A stretch of 36,877 bases of DNA, taken from NCBI GenBank assembly GCA_016932035.1, contig JAFGDR010000029.1, positions 1-36,877 on the forward strand, given 5' to 3'. The notes below the pieces were generated by a model, which made no database searches, was not told the DNA's origin, and saw only the letters and a program-made list of their open reading frames with translations. Below, piece after piece: positions 26,240 through 36,355 of the stretch. Within the stretch, counting starts at the first letter, position 1; the number at the start of each line of letters is the position of its first letter. Source of the DNA: Candidatus Cloacimonadota bacterium. Lineage in GTDB: Bacteria; Cloacimonadota; Cloacimonadia; JGIOTU-2. A program made the position numbers and the translations under genes.

Positions 26240-27343
26240 ATGGCAAAAGTGCAATTAGATAAAGTTACAAAAACATACGAGAACGGTTTCGTGGCAGTTG
26301 ATAAAGCTGACGTAACTGCCGAAGATAAAGAATTTGTCGTATTGGTCGGTCCTTCCGGTTGCGGAAAAACAACCACACTGCGTATGATCGCAGGACTCGA
26401 AGACGTTACTTCCGGTGATATCTATATCGGCGATAAGATCGTGAACAATGTACTTCCAAAAGACCGAGACATTGCAATGGTGTTCCAGAACTATGCACTC
26501 TACCCGCACATGACCGTCTATCAAAATATGGAATTCGCTCTTAAGTTGCGCAAAACTCCAAAAGATGAAATAGATGGCCGCGTGAAAACCGCAGCAGGAT
26601 TGCTTGGTATCGAGAAATTACTCGATCGAAAACCAAAGCAGCTTTCCGGTGGTCAACGCCAGCGTGTGGCACTGGGAAGAGCGATTGTGCGGTATCCCCA
26701 GGTCTTCCTGTTTGACGAACCACTCTCAAACCTTGATGCAAAGCTCCGTGTACAGATGCGTGCCGAGATCATTAAGCTGCATAAGAAGCTTGAAACAACT
26801 ATTATTTACGTTACCCATGACCAGACTGAAGCTATGACAATGGGAGACAAGATCGTTGTGCAAAAAGATGGTATTATTCAGCAGATTGATTCTCCCATAA
26901 ACGTATATAATCATCCGACTAATAAATTCGTTGCAGGATTCATCGGAAGTCCCGCAATCAACTTTTTTGACGGTAAGATAAGAAAAGAGAGCAAGAAACT
27001 TTTCTTTGATTATGGGAGCTTTACTGTGGAGATTCCTGATACTTATGATGATTCTCTCAAAGAATATGTAGGAAAAGATATTGTTATGGGAGTTCGTCCA
27101 GAAGATGTCTATCATAAGAAATATTCCTCAAATGCAGAAATTCCCGCAGAGATGGAAGCCATAGTTGAAGTCGTTGAACCGCTGGGTTCGGAATTTGTCG
27201 TTAATTTTAAAACCGGTGATACGATCTTTACTGGCAGACTGGAACCAAAGGAACAACCCAAAATGGACGAAACAATGACACTGGTTTTTGATATGAAAAA
27301 AGTGCACTTCTTCGATAAAGAGAGCGAAGAAACGATCATATAG
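26240..27343 (+). CDS. MalK/UgpC-type ABC transporter ATP-binding protein
   Basis: This 367-residue ATPase belongs to carbohydrate importers of the CUT1 kind. Walker A is GPSGCGKTT (37-45), followed by Q-loop VFQNYALYPHMTV, signature LSGGQRQRVALGRA, Walker B FLFDEPLSNLDA and the switch VTHDQTEAMT. A regulatory C-terminal part has a TOBE domain (about 240-360, FIGSPAINFFDG and MGVRPEDVY). No permease or binding-protein gene accompanies it. Such orphan ATPases often serve several sugar importers elsewhere in the genome (as MsmX does in Bacillus). It has its own promoter region and a preceding terminator. Confidence 0.93.
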   Translation: MAKVQLDKVTKTYENGFVAVDKADVTAEDKEFVVLVGPSGCGKTTTLRMIAGLEDVTSGDIYIGDKIVNNVLPKDRDIAMVFQNYALYPHMTVYQNMEFALKLRKTPKDEIDGRVKTAAGLLGIEKLLDRKPKQLSGGQRQRVALGRAIVRYPQVFLFDEPLSNLDAKLRVQMRAEIIKLHKKLETTIIYVTHDQTEAMTMGDKIVVQKDGIIQQIDSPINVYNHPTNKFVAGFIGSPAINFFDGKIRKESKKLFFDYGSFTVEIPDTYDDSLKEYVGKDIVMGVRPEDVYHKKYSSNAEIPAEMEAIVEVVEPLGSEFVVNFKTGDTIFTGRLEPKEQPKMDETMTLVFDMKKVHFFDKESEETII

Positions 27344-27555: not shown

Positions 27556-27579
27556 AATGATAAAAGAAAAATATACACC

Positions 27580-27618
27580 ATTGTTGTTATACCACCAAAT
27601 TGGAGGAATAACAACAAT
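27580..27618. repeat. 39-base near-perfect palindrome in the presumed attI region
   Basis: ATTGTTGTTAT (27580-27590) is exactly complementary to ATAACAACAAT (27608-27618). Inside, CC and CC pair with GG and GG, and the centre AAATT closes it. Only two A/A mismatches occur in 19 pairs. It has no T-run. It lies 25 bases after the integrase stop and 16 bases before the GTTAGCGGC site. Confidence 0.85.
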
Positions 27619-27633
27619 AGATGTTACACACAC

Positions 27634-27642
27634 GTTAGCGGC
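27634..27642 (+). promoter_or_regulatory. Crossover site at the left end of cassette 1 (attI-like GTTAGCGGC)
   Basis: GTTAGCGGC fits the GTT-type core where integron recombination cuts after the G. No matching CTAAC arm lies upstream, so this is a simple site as in attI rather than an attC. Its nine bases are the exact complement of the R'' box of cassette 1 (28405-28413). Confidence 0.7.
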
Positions 27643-28534
27643 AAGCATTCAAGAGCTTGATTGAAACTAAATACAGAAAAGAATATTAAGAAGAAAGAAA
27701 AATGATAATTGATACAACATTCAATGTTTATACAGACGCAAATGGCGGCGACCCTGACAGCACAAGTCCTACACTACGTACTTATCATAAATTATTGTGG
27801 AGTAAACCATTGCCGAACGGAGAACAATTCGTATTAGTTGACAATAAAAGCGGTACGTATTTACATCACAAATCAGGATTTGGAGAATATTTTTTAGGAA
27901 GTGATGCAATTACACATTCTTATAGAAATCATAAACGTAAGTCTTGGCTGACACACCAAATACAAGACGAAGTAAAAAAATTATTTGATACAGGTTCAAC
28001 TATTGGAGCATATACGCTTTTCCCAAACAATCGAGTTAATGGAAAACATACAATAAATCAAGCACGTGGAGTAAACAGTTTCATAGATGATAGATTTGAT
28101 TTGACTTTGGAGTGCATACGTCTTTTTTACTTGGGACAAGAAAGTCCGCTTTATGACACTTTTTTAAGATACAAGAACTTTTTCGACTTGTTTGAGAATT
28201 TTTCAGGTTATATCAATTTCTTTTTACTCAACGACCTTGTTGGAGAGAACGAAAAAATTAAGTTTTACTTGCCATTTGACAACTTTAAAACAAAACCAAC
28301 ATTTGCAGACATTGACGAATATTTAGTTTATAAAGAAAGAGTAATGAACTTTATAGAAGCACGGAACAAAAGAATAGATAAATGGACGAAAGAACAGAAT
28401 GCCAGCCGCTAACAGCAAGTCAAACTACATGCGGGTTTTGGTGGTTTGCTGACAAAATATTATCTTAGTAAAGTTGTTCAACGGTGGATAATGAAACGCG
28501 GCGAAATCCCGCACGATAGTTTACTTGCGAGCCG
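27635..28534 (+). mobile_element. Integron gene cassette 1 (DUF6994-like gene plus attC)
   Basis: About 900 bases between two GTTAGC crossover sites hold a single gene and its attC. The stop codon TAA (28410-28412) lies inside the R'' box, the compact arrangement typical of cassettes. Confidence 0.82.
27702..28412 (+). CDS. Cassette-borne hypothetical protein, DUF6994-like
   Basis: This 236-residue soluble protein has no signal peptide and no membrane segment. The N-terminal pattern MIIDTTFNVYTD...DPDSTSPTLRTYHKLLWSKPLPNG, followed by GEYFLGSDAITHSYRNHKRKSWL, matches my recollection of the DUF6994 family, whose role is unknown. Aromatic residues and charged helices dominate the C-terminal half, and no catalytic motif stands out. 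The coding sequence is AT-rich compared with flanking chromosomal genes. The ATG is preceded by AAGAAAGAAAAA, a weak ribosome-binding site. Carriage in an integron cassette points to an accessory role (defence, stress or metabolism), which is not demonstrated. Confidence 0.8.
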   Translation: MIIDTTFNVYTDANGGDPDSTSPTLRTYHKLLWSKPLPNGEQFVLVDNKSGTYLHHKSGFGEYFLGSDAITHSYRNHKRKSWLTHQIQDEVKKLFDTGSTIGAYTLFPNNRVNGKHTINQARGVNSFIDDRFDLTLECIRLFYLGQESPLYDTFLRYKNFFDLFENFSGYINFFLLNDLVGENEKIKFYLPFDNFKTKPTFADIDEYLVYKERVMNFIEARNKRIDKWTKEQNASR

Positions 28535-28542
28535 TTAGCACC
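28405..28542 (+). repeat. attC recombination site of cassette 1
   Basis: R'' is GCCGCTAAC (28405-28413) and R' is GTTAGCACC (28534-28542). L'' reads GCAAGT-C-AAACTA (28415-28427) and pairs with TAGTTTACTTGC (28517-28528), leaving only the C at 28421 unpaired: the extrahelical base of attC sites. Five bases separate CTAAC from GTCAAA. The inner stem continues with TGCGGG (28430-28435) and CCCGCA (28508-28513). The total of about 138 bases is near the size of the long Vibrio-type sites. Confidence 0.9.
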
Positions 28543-30180
28543 AATTAAGAATTTTATAACCTCAAATAAAAAAAAATGAACAATAAATTATTAGGTTTTG
28601 TAATGTTGATTACATTTTTTTCTTTAATCAATTTTTCTTGTACAGAAAAAAGAAACAGCAAAAATGCAAAAATTGATGAATTCATTAGTTATTGTTATGA
28701 GAATGACTTATTTAATGGCGCGGTATTAATCGCTCAAGAAGATGAAATTTTATATAAAAATGCATTGGGATATTCTAATTTTACTTCGAAAGAAGAATTA
28801 AATCTTAATTCCGTTTTCTGCATTGGCTCTATTTCTAAACAATTTACTTCAATGGCTGTAATGATATTGAAAGAGCAAGGAAAACTTACTTACGAAAATA
28901 AATTATCTGATTTTTTCCCAGATTATCCTAATTCAGATCAAATAAGTATCAGACATTTATTGAATCACACATCAGGTATACCCGAATGGATGGATTTTAG
29001 TAATTTCAGAGTTAAAAGTAGGCCAGGTGATTTTATTGATGATATTACTAATCAGGATGTTTTTGATTTTTTAGTACAATTAGACTCCCTTGACTTTAAC
29101 CCTGGAGAAAGATATTCTTACTCAAATAGTGGTTATATGTTACTATCAATGATTATTGAGAAAGTCTCAGGAAAGCCTTTCAATGAATTTGTAAAACAAT
29201 ATATTTTTGCTCCTTTAGATATGCAAAATACTATGGCATGGAATAAAACAAAACCAAATATACCTTATAAAACAACAGGTTATAATGATTATGGGGATAA
29301 AGATGATTTTAATATTTTAACAACAGGTGCTGGTAGTATATATTCAACTATAGACGATTTATACAAATATGATCAGGCGCTTTATACTAACAATCTTGTC
29401 TCTAGAGCTACATTAAAAGAAGCATGGACTCCAGGGCTTTTAAATGACGGGACTTCTATTCTTACAAGTGATTCAATCTGGGGCTATGGATTTGGTTGGC
29501 TTTTAAGAAATACCGATAAGTATAATATAGTATGGCATGATGGAGGATTTAACGGATTTAGTGCAATATTTTATCGTGAATTAAATAACCACAATGTTAT
29601 AATCCTTCTTTCCAATAAGGGTACAAATGGTCCTTTGTATCCAATTCAGGAGGCAATTCTAAACATATTGAACGATAAGCCATTTAACTACCATCAGGTA
29701 CCGATTGGGATAAAACTAAAGAAGCTGATTGATGAAAATGGAATAGCTGTTGCAGTTCAAAAGTATAACGTACTAAAAAATAAAGATGCAAATAAATATG
29801 ATTTTTCCATAAACCAACTTAATAACCTTGGTTACTACTATTTAAATAATCAAAAATTTGAGGAAGCTAAGGTTGTTTTAAACCTGAACATTGAAATGTT
29901 TCCTTCGGATGCTAATGTTTACGATAGTTACGGTGAAGCATTAATGCTTAATGGTGAATACGAACTTGCTATAAAAAACTATAAAAAATCAATTGAATTA
30001 GATCCAAATAATGAAAATGGAAAGCAAATGCTTAAGTATATTGAAGATAAAATGGAAAAAGAATAAATATTGTTGTTTTATTAGTTGCCAAAAACATGAG
30101 TTGTTATGAATTTCAGGTGCTAACAAAGGCTCAAAAAGCATAACCGCCCTGCTGGACGGCAACGCTTTTTAGCCTAATCG
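28535..30180 (+). mobile_element. Integron gene cassette 2 (serine hydrolase gene plus attC)
   Basis: About 1646 bases, with one gene and one attC. The first bases (GTTAGCACC, shared with the R' of the preceding site) are the exact complement of its own R'' at 30116-30124. The gene starts 42 bases inside the cassette. Confidence 0.82.
28576..30066 (+). CDS. Lipoprotein serine hydrolase (class C beta-lactamase family) with TPR repeats
   Basis: The 496-residue protein has a lipoprotein signal (hydrophobic core about 6-20, then NFSC, Cys22) and a beta-lactamase/DD-peptidase fold (about 30-375). The nucleophile motif is SISK in CIGSISKQFTSMAV (near residue 95), the YSN motif is in RYSYSNSGYML, and HDGG takes the place of KTG. 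The last 110 residues hold TPR-like helices (NNLGYYYLNNQKFEEAKVVL, YDSYGEALMLNGEYELAIKNYKKSIELDPNN). This family includes peptidases, esterases and few true beta-lactamases, so resistance should not be assumed. An A-rich tract precedes the ATG in place of a Shine-Dalgarno, as in Bacteroidota genes. It is AT-rich. Confidence 0.88.
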   Translation: MNNKLLGFVMLITFFSLINFSCTEKRNSKNAKIDEFISYCYENDLFNGAVLIAQEDEILYKNALGYSNFTSKEELNLNSVFCIGSISKQFTSMAVMILKEQGKLTYENKLSDFFPDYPNSDQISIRHLLNHTSGIPEWMDFSNFRVKSRPGDFIDDITNQDVFDFLVQLDSLDFNPGERYSYSNSGYMLLSMIIEKVSGKPFNEFVKQYIFAPLDMQNTMAWNKTKPNIPYKTTGYNDYGDKDDFNILTTGAGSIYSTIDDLYKYDQALYTNNLVSRATLKEAWTPGLLNDGTSILTSDSIWGYGFGWLLRNTDKYNIVWHDGGFNGFSAIFYRELNNHNVIILLSNKGTNGPLYPIQEAILNILNDKPFNYHQVPIGIKLKKLIDENGIAVAVQKYNVLKNKDANKYDFSINQLNNLGYYYLNNQKFEEAKVVLNLNIEMFPSDANVYDSYGEALMLNGEYELAIKNYKKSIELDPNNENGKQMLKYIEDKMEKE

Positions 30181-30188
30181 TTACAAGA
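30116..30188 (+). repeat. attC recombination site of cassette 2
   Basis: R'' is GGTGCTAAC (30116-30124) and R' is GTTACAAGA (30180-30188). AGGCT-C-AAAAAGC (30128-30139) pairs with GCTTTTTAGCCT (30164-30175), leaving only C30132 unpaired, which is the extrahelical base. Again five bases separate CTAAC from L''. The apical stem is CCG/CGG with CC/GG around a TGCT loop (30144-30159). The total of about 70 bases is a standard short attC. Confidence 0.9.
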
Positions 30189-33987: not shown

Positions 33988-35492
33988 TTTTCCTTGAGTA
34001 ATTGCTGAAGACGTCGAAGTGCATCTTCCGATGAGATCTGCATCCTGATATATTCCAGAATATCCTGTCGCGCATACTCTTTGTCATCTCGGAGCTGGTT
34101 TGCCACCTTAATGATACTGCCAAAAATCGGATCGGGGCTAAACCCTAATGCGATCAGATCTTTACCTTCGATAACATTTTCCGGCTTGTCCCGGTCAACA
34201 TTAAGCTGCTGAGACCGTTCGATGAGCCACTGTCCGGATTTGAAATTAGTATCATGGTCCCGCAGACGAGTGCCTTTGCCAAGATAATCAGCTTCTGATA
34301 CAAGCGTGAGTTCGTATATCGTTGCAGGATAGAGCCGTCGTGCCAGTCTCCTGATAGCGCCATCGGTAATCTTTTCTTTCTTCTGAAATTCCGCTTTATA
34401 AAACGAGAATGGCGCAAGATGATTCTTCACAAGGGGAATTACTTTCTCTTTTGTGTCATTATCCACACCTATTCTGTTAAGAAATTCACGGGTTGGCACT
34501 TCTCCTTCGGATTCATGCTCTGGTGTGGAGATGCGGTCATCTGCTTTTATGGTCGTTGAGGGTTTCCCAAAATCATGGCAAAGAATACTGAGCATGATAA
34601 CAAATGCTTCTCGAACCCGCATCCGCTCGCGGTGTATGATCTGTGCTCCGGCATTCAGGCAAAGGAGCGTATGTATCCACGCATTTCCTTCAGGATGCCA
34701 GAGAGAGTCCTGTTCGGTCCTGTTCAATTCAAAAAGCTCGCTATGATATCTTTCTATAATTCCAAGATCCAGCATGGTCTTTAATCCCAGGGAGGGTTTC
34801 ATTGATTTGAGCAGCAATTTTTTCCACTCCATCTGAATGCGTTCCTTTGGAAGCTCTGAAAGGCATGGCACCATTTTTTTCATTAAAGAAAAACTCTTCA
34901 GTTCGACGACAAGATCAAAGCGTGCAATGAATTGAACACCTCTCATCACACGGAGGGGATCCTCTCCAAATGTCTTCTCATCGACCACTCGAAGCACCCG
35001 TTTTTCAAGATCTGCAAGCCCGTGGAACGGGTCGATGAGTACTTCTGTAACAGGATCATACATCATGGCATTAATAGTGAAGTCCCTTCTGCGGACTGCT
35101 TCTTTGATATCCATAAAAGGATCGGTATCAACTGCAAATCCCCTGTGCCCTTCACCAACCTTAGAATCCTTTCTGGGAAGAGAGAAATCTATCTCCAATG
35201 TACCGTCATAATATTTCAGCACCCCAAAAGATTTGCCCACCTCCATGACCTTGCCGTACTTTTCTACAATTTCCTGAATCGTATCCGGCTGCATGCCATA
35301 CACTTCGATATCCAGGTCCTTTGTGGGCTTTTTCCCCAGCAGCATATCACGTACACTGCCGCCGACCAGAAATGCCTTGCCGCCCTGTCCGTCTATTTCT
35401 CTGACAATATCAATAACGGTCTGCGGAATAGTAGAAAGTGCCGGTGTGAAAAAGCGTGGTATTTTCTTGATATAGGAATTCGGTATCTTCAT
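33984..35492 (-). CDS. CCA tRNA nucleotidyltransferase / poly(A) polymerase-like protein with HD domain
   Basis: This 502-residue class II nucleotidyltransferase has FLVGGSVRDMLLG (41-53) with the catalytic DxD at Asp59 and Asp61 (KDLDIEVYG). The RRDFTINAMMYDP motif (about 134-146), ERIQMEWKKLL and an HD phosphohydrolase domain (CHDFGKPSTT, about 290-300) follow. HD-bearing members add CCA to tRNA 3' ends and trim cyclic phosphates. Length is greater than the E. coli enzyme (412). Poly(A) polymerases share the head domain, so specificity is not certain. It overlaps both neighbours by 4 bases (ATGA). Confidence 0.88.
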   Translation of the reverse strand: MKIPNSYIKKIPRFFTPALSTIPQTVIDIVREIDGQGGKAFLVGGSVRDMLLGKKPTKDLDIEVYGMQPDTIQEIVEKYGKVMEVGKSFGVLKYYDGTLEIDFSLPRKDSKVGEGHRGFAVDTDPFMDIKEAVRRRDFTINAMMYDPVTEVLIDPFHGLADLEKRVLRVVDEKTFGEDPLRVMRGVQFIARFDLVVELKSFSLMKKMVPCLSELPKERIQMEWKKLLLKSMKPSLGLKTMLDLGIIERYHSELFELNRTEQDSLWHPEGNAWIHTLLCLNAGAQIIHRERMRVREAFVIMLSILCHDFGKPSTTIKADDRISTPEHESEGEVPTREFLNRIGVDNDTKEKVIPLVKNHLAPFSFYKAEFQKKEKITDGAIRRLARRLYPATIYELTLVSEADYLGKGTRLRDHDTNFKSGQWLIERSQQLNVDRDKPENVIEGKDLIALGFSPDPIFGSIIKVANQLRDDKEYARQDILEYIRMQISSEDALRRLQQLLKEK

Positions 35493-36337
35493 GGATTCAA
35501 TTCTAATCTTTCTTTCTTCATTTGTAAAGCCAGTTTGTACACCCGATTTCTCGAGAGTTTATGCTCCTGAGCCAACTCCCTGGCAGCACTGCTTACAGAT
35601 TTATTATGATGAAATTCCTCTGTGATAAGTTCTCGAAGCTCTTCATCAGAAAGGACTTGCTCCTTCGCGCCCTCCACAACGATTACAAACTCGCCTTTCA
35701 GTGTTATTTCGTTAAAATTCTCAACGAAATGCGAAAGCTTTCCGCGATAATGTGTTTCAAACTTTTTTGATATTTCTCTGGCAATGCAGATTTGCCTATC
35801 TTTCAGGTATTTGATTAATTCTGCCAGTGTTTCATGCAAACGATGCGGCGCTTCGTAAAAAATTAGCGTATCCTGATTATTCTCAAGATTTTGCAAGAAC
35901 TCTCTGCGCTCGGATTGTTTCTCCGGGAGAAATCCAACAAAATAAAATTTCTCCGTATAAAGACCGGAAGATACAAGCGCGGGAATGAGTGCGGTCGCTC
36001 CCGGAAGTGTTATTACTTCTATTTCCTGTGCAATCGCTTCTTTGATGAGAATACCTGCCGGATCAGATATACCGGGAGTGCCTGCATCGGAGATGATGGC
36101 AATATCTTCACCATTTTGCAACTTCTCAATGAACTCATCAAGGCGTGCTCGCTCATTGAATTTGTGATAACTCACCAGAGGTGTCGTAATATTATAATGA
36201 TCGAGCAAAACCCGCGAAGTGCGCGTATCCTCAGCGCCGATAAGTACTACTTTCTGTAAGATTTCAACTGCCCGGTAAGTCATGTCGCCGAGATTGCCAA
36301 TGGGTGTAGGCACAATATAGAGTGATCCGTTTTTCAT
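35489..36337 (-). CDS. rsmI: 16S rRNA (cytidine 1402-2'-O) methyltransferase
   Basis: RsmI methylates the ribose of C1402 in the 16S decoding centre. SLYIVPTPIGNLGDMTYRAVEIL at the N-terminus, AEDTRTSRVLLDHY, SDAGTPGISDPAG and LPGATALIPALVSSG are diagnostic of the tetrapyrrole-methylase fold. The C-terminal helices are usual. I take ATG 36337 (282 residues) because the family starts close to the LYIV strand. A TTG at 36355 would add six residues. It overlaps the CCA-type gene by 4 bases. Confidence 0.93.
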   Translation of the reverse strand: MKNGSLYIVPTPIGNLGDMTYRAVEILQKVVLIGAEDTRTSRVLLDHYNITTPLVSYHKFNERARLDEFIEKLQNGEDIAIISDAGTPGISDPAGILIKEAIAQEIEVITLPGATALIPALVSSGLYTEKFYFVGFLPEKQSERREFLQNLENNQDTLIFYEAPHRLHETLAELIKYLKDRQICIAREISKKFETHYRGKLSHFVENFNEITLKGEFVIVVEGAKEQVLSDEELRELITEEFHHNKSVSSAARELAQEHKLSRNRVYKLALQMKKERLELNP

Positions 36338-36355
36338 GATAGAGAAGTGTTTCAA

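Follow-up and report, generated by a model that had tools for sequence, protein, structure and literature searches.

A conserved palindrome in the attI-type site behind a non-IntI tyrosine recombinase of Cloacimonadota

The attI1 site of class 1 integrons consists of a simple L/R site together with the accessory direct repeats DR1 and DR2, which favor recombination between attI and attC (PMC8946536). Co-evolution with the cognate integrase is assumed for attI sites (PMC8946536), which are regarded as less well conserved than attC and as more difficult to predict (PMC3607928). Integron integrases need an additional insertion for activity, as stated in the title of Messier and Roy 2001 (cited in PMC2426708).

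Here, we describe an attI-type site in a window of 36,877 nucleotides (the whole stretch of DNA that was analyzed) from a Candidatus Cloacimonadota bacterium. Like attI1, it has upstream accessory repeats beside a GTT crossover at which the first cassette enters, and a short open reading frame (ORF) with a Shine-Dalgarno sequence runs across the crossover, as ORF-11 does (PMC8876359). Unlike in attI1, the accessory element is a 39-bp inverted repeat instead of the direct repeats DR1/DR2 (PMC8946536), the recombinase gene lies upstream in the same orientation, and the enzyme belongs to a clade without the IntI insertion. Recombinase, attI and cassettes share one orientation, as in Treponema-type chromosomal integrons (PMC3607928), whereas the enzyme of the latter is IntI and PMC3607928 mentions no palindrome for their attI. 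Cassettes bearing an attI-type site are also known from resistance arrays; those sites derive from attI1 or attI2 and are recombined by IntI1, while here a promoter-attI module, sometimes with a recombinase, starts at a GTTATGCC-type boundary. The 277-aa relative of the recombinase resembles XerA/XerC/XerD-type enzymes (NF040815) in scoring above their cut-off and in lacking the IntI insertion, and differs from them in its association with attC cassettes and with a palindromic site behind its own gene. Going by the open-access literature, a palindromic attI of a non-IntI clade is new; subscription journals and preprints may hold more.

The palindrome and its cassettes in the window

The palindrome, ATTGTTGTTATACCACCAAATTGGAGGAATAACAACAAT, has arms of 19 nt that are complementary at 17 of 19 positions, the two mismatches, both A/A, falling at arm positions 12 and 15; the features around it are listed in Table 1. 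An earlier sequence-only reading had judged this symmetry to be far beyond chance, and the statistics bear it out: as single-stranded DNA, the surroundings have a folding energy of -12.7 kcal/mol, where shuffled versions average -4.2 (z -4.93; 0 of 200 shuffles equal), and the pattern matches once in the window and never in 100 shuffled ones. That reading had also placed the palindrome between an integrase remnant and the first cassette, as the coordinates of the remnant and of the crossover confirm, and had proposed a search for further copies in the same genome; in the 2.44-Mb assembly, of which the window is contig 29, the palindrome is present once.

Table 1. Coordinates of the features at the capture site and in the first two cassettes
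Feature	Position	Strand	Remark
ugpC/malK-like ABC-transporter ATPase gene	26240..27343	+	Fixed left neighbor of the capture locus throughout the genus
C-terminal remnant of a non-IntI tyrosine recombinase, 48 residues	27409..27555	+	PF00589 match
Short leader ORF, 35 codons, spanning attI into cassette 1	27557..27664	+	Codon-position test negative
39-base palindrome (putative IR1 of attI)	27580..27618	.	Arms TTGTTGTTAT/ATAACAACAA flanking CC-AAATT-GG
15-nt spacer AGATGTTACACACAC, consensus GGTGATACACACAA, before GTT	27619..27633	+	27/29 copies; probable core side of attI crossover
GTT crossover; conservation ends, cassette starts	27634..27636	+	Information profile
Gene cassette 1, DUF6994 gene 27702-28412	27635..28534	+	PF22507 E=1.9e-90
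attC of cassette 1; R'' 28405-28413, R' GTT at 28534	28405..28536	+	Inverted pair
Gene cassette 2, beta-lactamase-fold serine hydrolase with TPR, 28576-30066	28535..30180	+	PF00144 E=9.3e-54
attC of cassette 2; R'' GGTGCTAAC 30116-30124, R' GTTACAAG from 30180	30116..30187	+	Read directly

Several readings of the palindrome were discarded. An intrinsic terminator was dropped, in agreement with the earlier view that this is not a standard one: a GC-rich stem with a T-run was not found, the stem being AT-rich, without a T-run, and followed by AGATGTTACAC. A LexA-like operator had been suggested alongside an integrase operator; the LexA half was abandoned after direct inspection of the letters of 27580-27618 found no CTG-N10-CAG box, and a recombinase-binding inverted repeat remains as our preferred candidate mechanism. 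The palindrome region has no Rfam match, and a known RNA family was dropped as well; the sole weak Rfam match, to tmRNA (13 bits against 47), falls inside the gene of cassette 2. Between the palindrome and GTT there is no direct repeat of the arms in the window type; the repeat is inverted instead.

The start of cassette 1, GTTAGCGGC, is matched by R'' GCCGCTAAC of its attC, and that of cassette 2, GTTAGCACC, by R'' GGTGCTAAC, the L''/L' pair of the second attC being AGGCT..AAAAAGC/GCTTTTTAGCCT. The TPR of the cassette 2 product is C-terminal, and by eye the protein has a lipoprotein-like signal sequence. Further along the window, a YefM-like antitoxin ORF lies upstream of rsmI (35489-36355); in G006 and G004, the gene immediately preceding rsmI, and oriented like it, is a true IntI gene (L101 and L103).

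Conservation up to the crossover and exchange of cassettes behind it

A block of about 80 bases (27556-27636) recurs at roughly 80-90% identity in many genomes of the same class, and the match stops at the cassette boundary. The class is represented by 125 genomes, and a covariance model built on the block detects it in 27 of them. G028 gives the most matches, 12, including two that repeat a counted site on the reverse strand, which leaves about ten copies. An exact-pattern scan of named genomes gave 13 stretches, mostly in Cloacimonadota, including Celaenobacter and Tenebribacter, with single metagenome-assembled genomes (MAGs) labeled Marinimicrobia/Neomarinimicrobiota, Peptostreptococcaceae, Bacteroidales and Desulfobacteraceae; some of the labels outside Cloacimonadota could be binning errors. 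No exact match to the palindrome occurs in viral_contigs, and three recombinase relatives from IMG/VR (46-47% identity) have no such site; a phage origin was dropped on these grounds.

The information profile of 29 well-scoring copies stays high across the palindrome and stands at about 2 bits at GTT; past GTT it falls to at most 0.8 bits, as in each of the next seven positions, a conserved AT about 10 bases on being the exception. At 16 of 45 copies, the first nine cassette bases have their reverse complement further downstream, as R'', against 0.49 expected when cassette starts are swapped between loci; the crossover was chosen after alignment, and the swap control used the same choice.

The genus to which the window belongs offers an orthologous comparison, as all eight of its genomes have a ugpC ortholog and share the downstream layout wherever the locus extends past the gene. 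The recombinase is intact in G007, a remnant in G000, G003, G005 (twice) and G002, and lost in G001 and G006; the G004 contig ends before the site and was left out. In every readable genome, ugpC is followed by a palindrome, then RTT, then a differing cassette: a DUF6994 gene in G000, a SAM-dependent methyltransferase in G001 and an MBL-fold protein in G006 (the latter two named by eye), with attCs showing R''/R' complementarity in G001 and G006 also. G000 and G003 have a palindrome of the window type, and G001, G002, G005 and G006 a second type, TTGTCGTATAC..CC-AAATn-GG..CGCGACAA, then GGGGATACAGAC/RTT or similar. A palindrome and RTT with changing cassettes at one orthologous position identify the site as attI, and its position, crossover, cassettes and conservation can be read directly from the loci. 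The sequence-only reading had entertained an unusual, symmetric attI, which the spacing of 15 nt in 27 of 29 copies, the end of conservation at GTT and the cassette differences now uphold.

Some single loci deserve mention. The G003 contig C24 (L026) stops at position 1, exactly at the crossover GTT, as would be expected if cassettes differ within the population. By eye, the first cassettes in G007 (L131) and G005 (L135) seem to encode TIR-like or other defense-type proteins. The methyltransferase-like cassette of G001 (L132) starts with TTATGCC, has its own TTGACT promoter and Shine-Dalgarno sequence, and ends in an attC with R'' AGGCATAAC; its 5' block is the same as in the attI modules described below.

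The recombinase clade and the arms of the palindrome

The remnant is 84% identical to residues 234-277 of the nearest intact enzyme, a 277-aa recombinase of the Phage_integrase family (L039/L051). This protein passes NF040815 (229.8 against a cut-off of 220) and fails TIGR02249 (204 bits, in two stretches, against a cut-off of 265). In an alignment, the IntI-specific insertion is absent from the clade and present only in the IntI of L101, L103, L104 and L105; among the 125 class genomes, only 7 have a true IntI. Set against the features of integrons, the clade thus lacks the IntI-specific additional domain, while attI adjoins the recombinase gene with its crossover at GTT, and the cassettes end in attCs with complementary R''/R', both at 16 of the 45 copies and in the two window cassettes. 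The site works like an integron platform, and it is on the IntI domain that formal integron membership fails. Given that the clade is without the insertion on which integron integrases depend, the cassettes could have been loaded by a different enzyme.

The earlier reading had proposed looking for the palindrome beside related integrases. A significant inverted repeat lies at most 120 bp from the stop codon in 26 of 41 recombinase relatives (recombinase ends with at least 40% C-terminal identity) against 1 of 12 controls (five IntI and seven Xer-like), and a CCAAATnGG-like center in 24/41 against 1/12; by the same score, 15 of the 41 relatives have no significant inverted repeat. The palindrome is therefore associated with this clade. 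One control, L102, carries an unrelated inverted repeat. True IntI was dropped as the cognate enzyme, no such palindrome having been seen after the IntI genes examined.

Within the clade the arms vary, with TTGTTGTTAT, TTGTTCTTA, TTGTCGTATAC, GTTCGTATAC and GGTCGTATAC among them, and a further group has XXXX-ATAACT..AGTTAT-XXXX followed by AACTATAGGTTAGTTATG and a hairpin. This further group comprises L090, L092, L097, L098, L119, L120, L122 and L127, and its hairpin ends in ATATG/TTA; L090 and L092 stand in tandem with an upstream recombinase, and that upstream member has no palindrome. In the second group, the arm motif recurs beside the crossover within the same locus more than between loci (0 of 5000 permutations, with segments delimited by hand and loci that are related). 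Compensated arm changes number 24 of 146 against a null mean of 9.5 under a column shuffle that ignores relatedness, the best of 2000 shuffles reaching 26. One example is GTTGTTAT..ATAACAAC becoming GTTCTTAT..ATAAGAAC in L044, with a similar pair in L142. In G028, a near-complete genome with copies L031, L032, L041, L043, L044, L065 and L070, three copies within 10 kb share or half-share this compensated change.

We consider it probable, at roughly two chances in three, that the palindrome is a recombinase-binding inverted repeat (IR1) in the attI of a non-IntI tyrosine recombinase clade. IR1 would form the upstream, symmetrical part of an attI-type recombination site serving the recombinase encoded immediately before it in the same orientation. 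The inverted arms would be accessory or topological sites, probably occupied by two recombinase monomers, a part played in attI1 by the direct repeats DR1 and DR2, and cassettes would insert at the GTT 15 nt further down; the arms differ from one recombinase to another, which is what a cognate binding site would lead one to expect. Both the binding of protein to the palindrome and the chemistry of strand exchange are what we infer from sequence. With the recombinase now reduced to a C-terminal remnant, and with no intact clade member found in this genome, the site here would be inactive unless a recombinase acts in trans. G028 likewise has no intact member of the clade.

The position of the palindrome directly behind the stop codon would also suit a terminator, or a protector of the 3' end of the recombinase mRNA, that lies inside attI by chance, and some relatives (L090, L097) do have a T-run after it. 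We regard this as very unlikely: the T-run is absent here and in most copies, the second-group motif is repeated near the crossover, and orphan copies retain the palindrome between promoter and cassette, a place in which a terminator would shut the cassette off.

Dispersed promoter-attI modules and the leader ORF

The block before the intact recombinase of L039 (ATTATGCCTATTTTCAGTAT..TTGACA..AAGGAGATT) matches the block directly before the leader ORF of orphan copies, and a similar block precedes an 80%-identical recombinase in L137. Among 52 listed copies (L050 and L061 being one contig), the 5' end is exactly TTATGCC or TTACGCC in about a quarter and nearly so in three more; about a third of the copies have a GTTATGCC-type boundary accompanied by a promoter. 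An attC-like end precedes this boundary in several copies, and the end found there in L042, L053 and L072 is attI-like and resembles that of the ATAACT group. In L028 (oriented 742-910), the right half of a partial attI is joined to the next module (GGCATAACAACAATAGGTTATACACACAA/GTTATGCC), and the junction shows perfect R''-like complementarity to the next start. Sequence comparison suggests that the promoter-attI module, sometimes with a recombinase, may itself move as a cassette. Such movement would leave junctions of the form GATACACACAAG/TTATGCC, and a circular junction of the module could form a compact attC, the right arm GGNATAAC pairing with the left end GTTATGCC at 7 of 8 positions, which is suggestive. 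A search for an empty/filled pair of the module found none.

Many dispersed copies unrelated to integrases, which the sequence-only reading would have taken as the mark of a generic repeat, do occur in genomes such as G028, but they directly precede genes with cassette-type starts and are therefore orphan attI sites. Its suggestion of a scar from another element survives in altered form: a generic scar finds no support, while dispersed, integrase-less copies of the whole promoter-attI module exist. That the module is a separate mobile element, a MITE-like derivative of a recombinase-encoding element with only incidental cassettes nearby, would account for up to 12 copies without recombinase in one genome (G028) and for the 5' promoter block that orphan copies share with the intact recombinase. 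We hold this to be very unlikely, as the module ends, on its 3' side, at the cassette crossover, where 16 of 45 sites have an attC with matching R'', and the orthologous locus keeps its site while the cassette changes.

A stronger competitor, though still unlikely, is that the cassette mRNA has the palindrome as a hairpin in its leader, which, together with promoter, Shine-Dalgarno sequence and short leader ORF, attenuates or couples translation of the first cassette gene, as do ORF-11 and the attenuators of class 1 integrons. In most copies a leader ORF across the crossover opens with an ATG at position -23 relative to the palindrome, and a GGAG usually precedes it; conservation begins near this ATG, the stop is supplied by the cassette, and in L038 and L050 the leader is in frame with the cassette gene (fused ORFs of 405 and 379 aa). 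The arrangement parallels that of ORF-11 in attI1 (PMC8876359). Promoter-like TTGAC boxes, which could represent the cassette promoter Pc of integron platforms, lie upstream of orphan copies, and none is established in the window. Persistence of the palindrome in orphan copies whose genome (G028) has no cognate recombinase would fit a role in expression too. Against this, codon positions 1, 2 and 3 vary by 0.12, 0.15 and 0.11 before the palindrome, giving no coding signal; the frame is broken in L036, L041, L043, L047 and L065; L052 and L055 keep the palindrome without a leader ORF; and palindromes also follow recombinases whose att sites lack one (L116, L118, L119, L097). A conserved leader peptide was dropped after the negative codon test, and with the frame broken as well, only the initiation region could matter; in ORF-11, too, amino acid changes are reported to matter little (PMC8876359).

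Returning to the reading of the palindrome as a recombinase-binding repeat, we tentatively propose a wider picture, which we think somewhat less probable than its opposite: a separate, non-IntI branch of cassette capture may exist, in which every recombinase would recognize a palindromic attI by an arm code of its own, and whose promoter-(recombinase)-attI unit would itself be a cassette, entering the sites of other integrons and so seeding new capture sites across the genome as nested integrons. The fixed spacing and shared center of the palindrome make such attI sites searchable. Should attC cassettes indeed be moved by this non-IntI recombinase, cassette capture has a route other than the extra IntI domain, and the descent of integrons from Xer-like enzymes can be tested directly. 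Capture sites would also be seeded in a new way, by attI modules dispersed as orphans.
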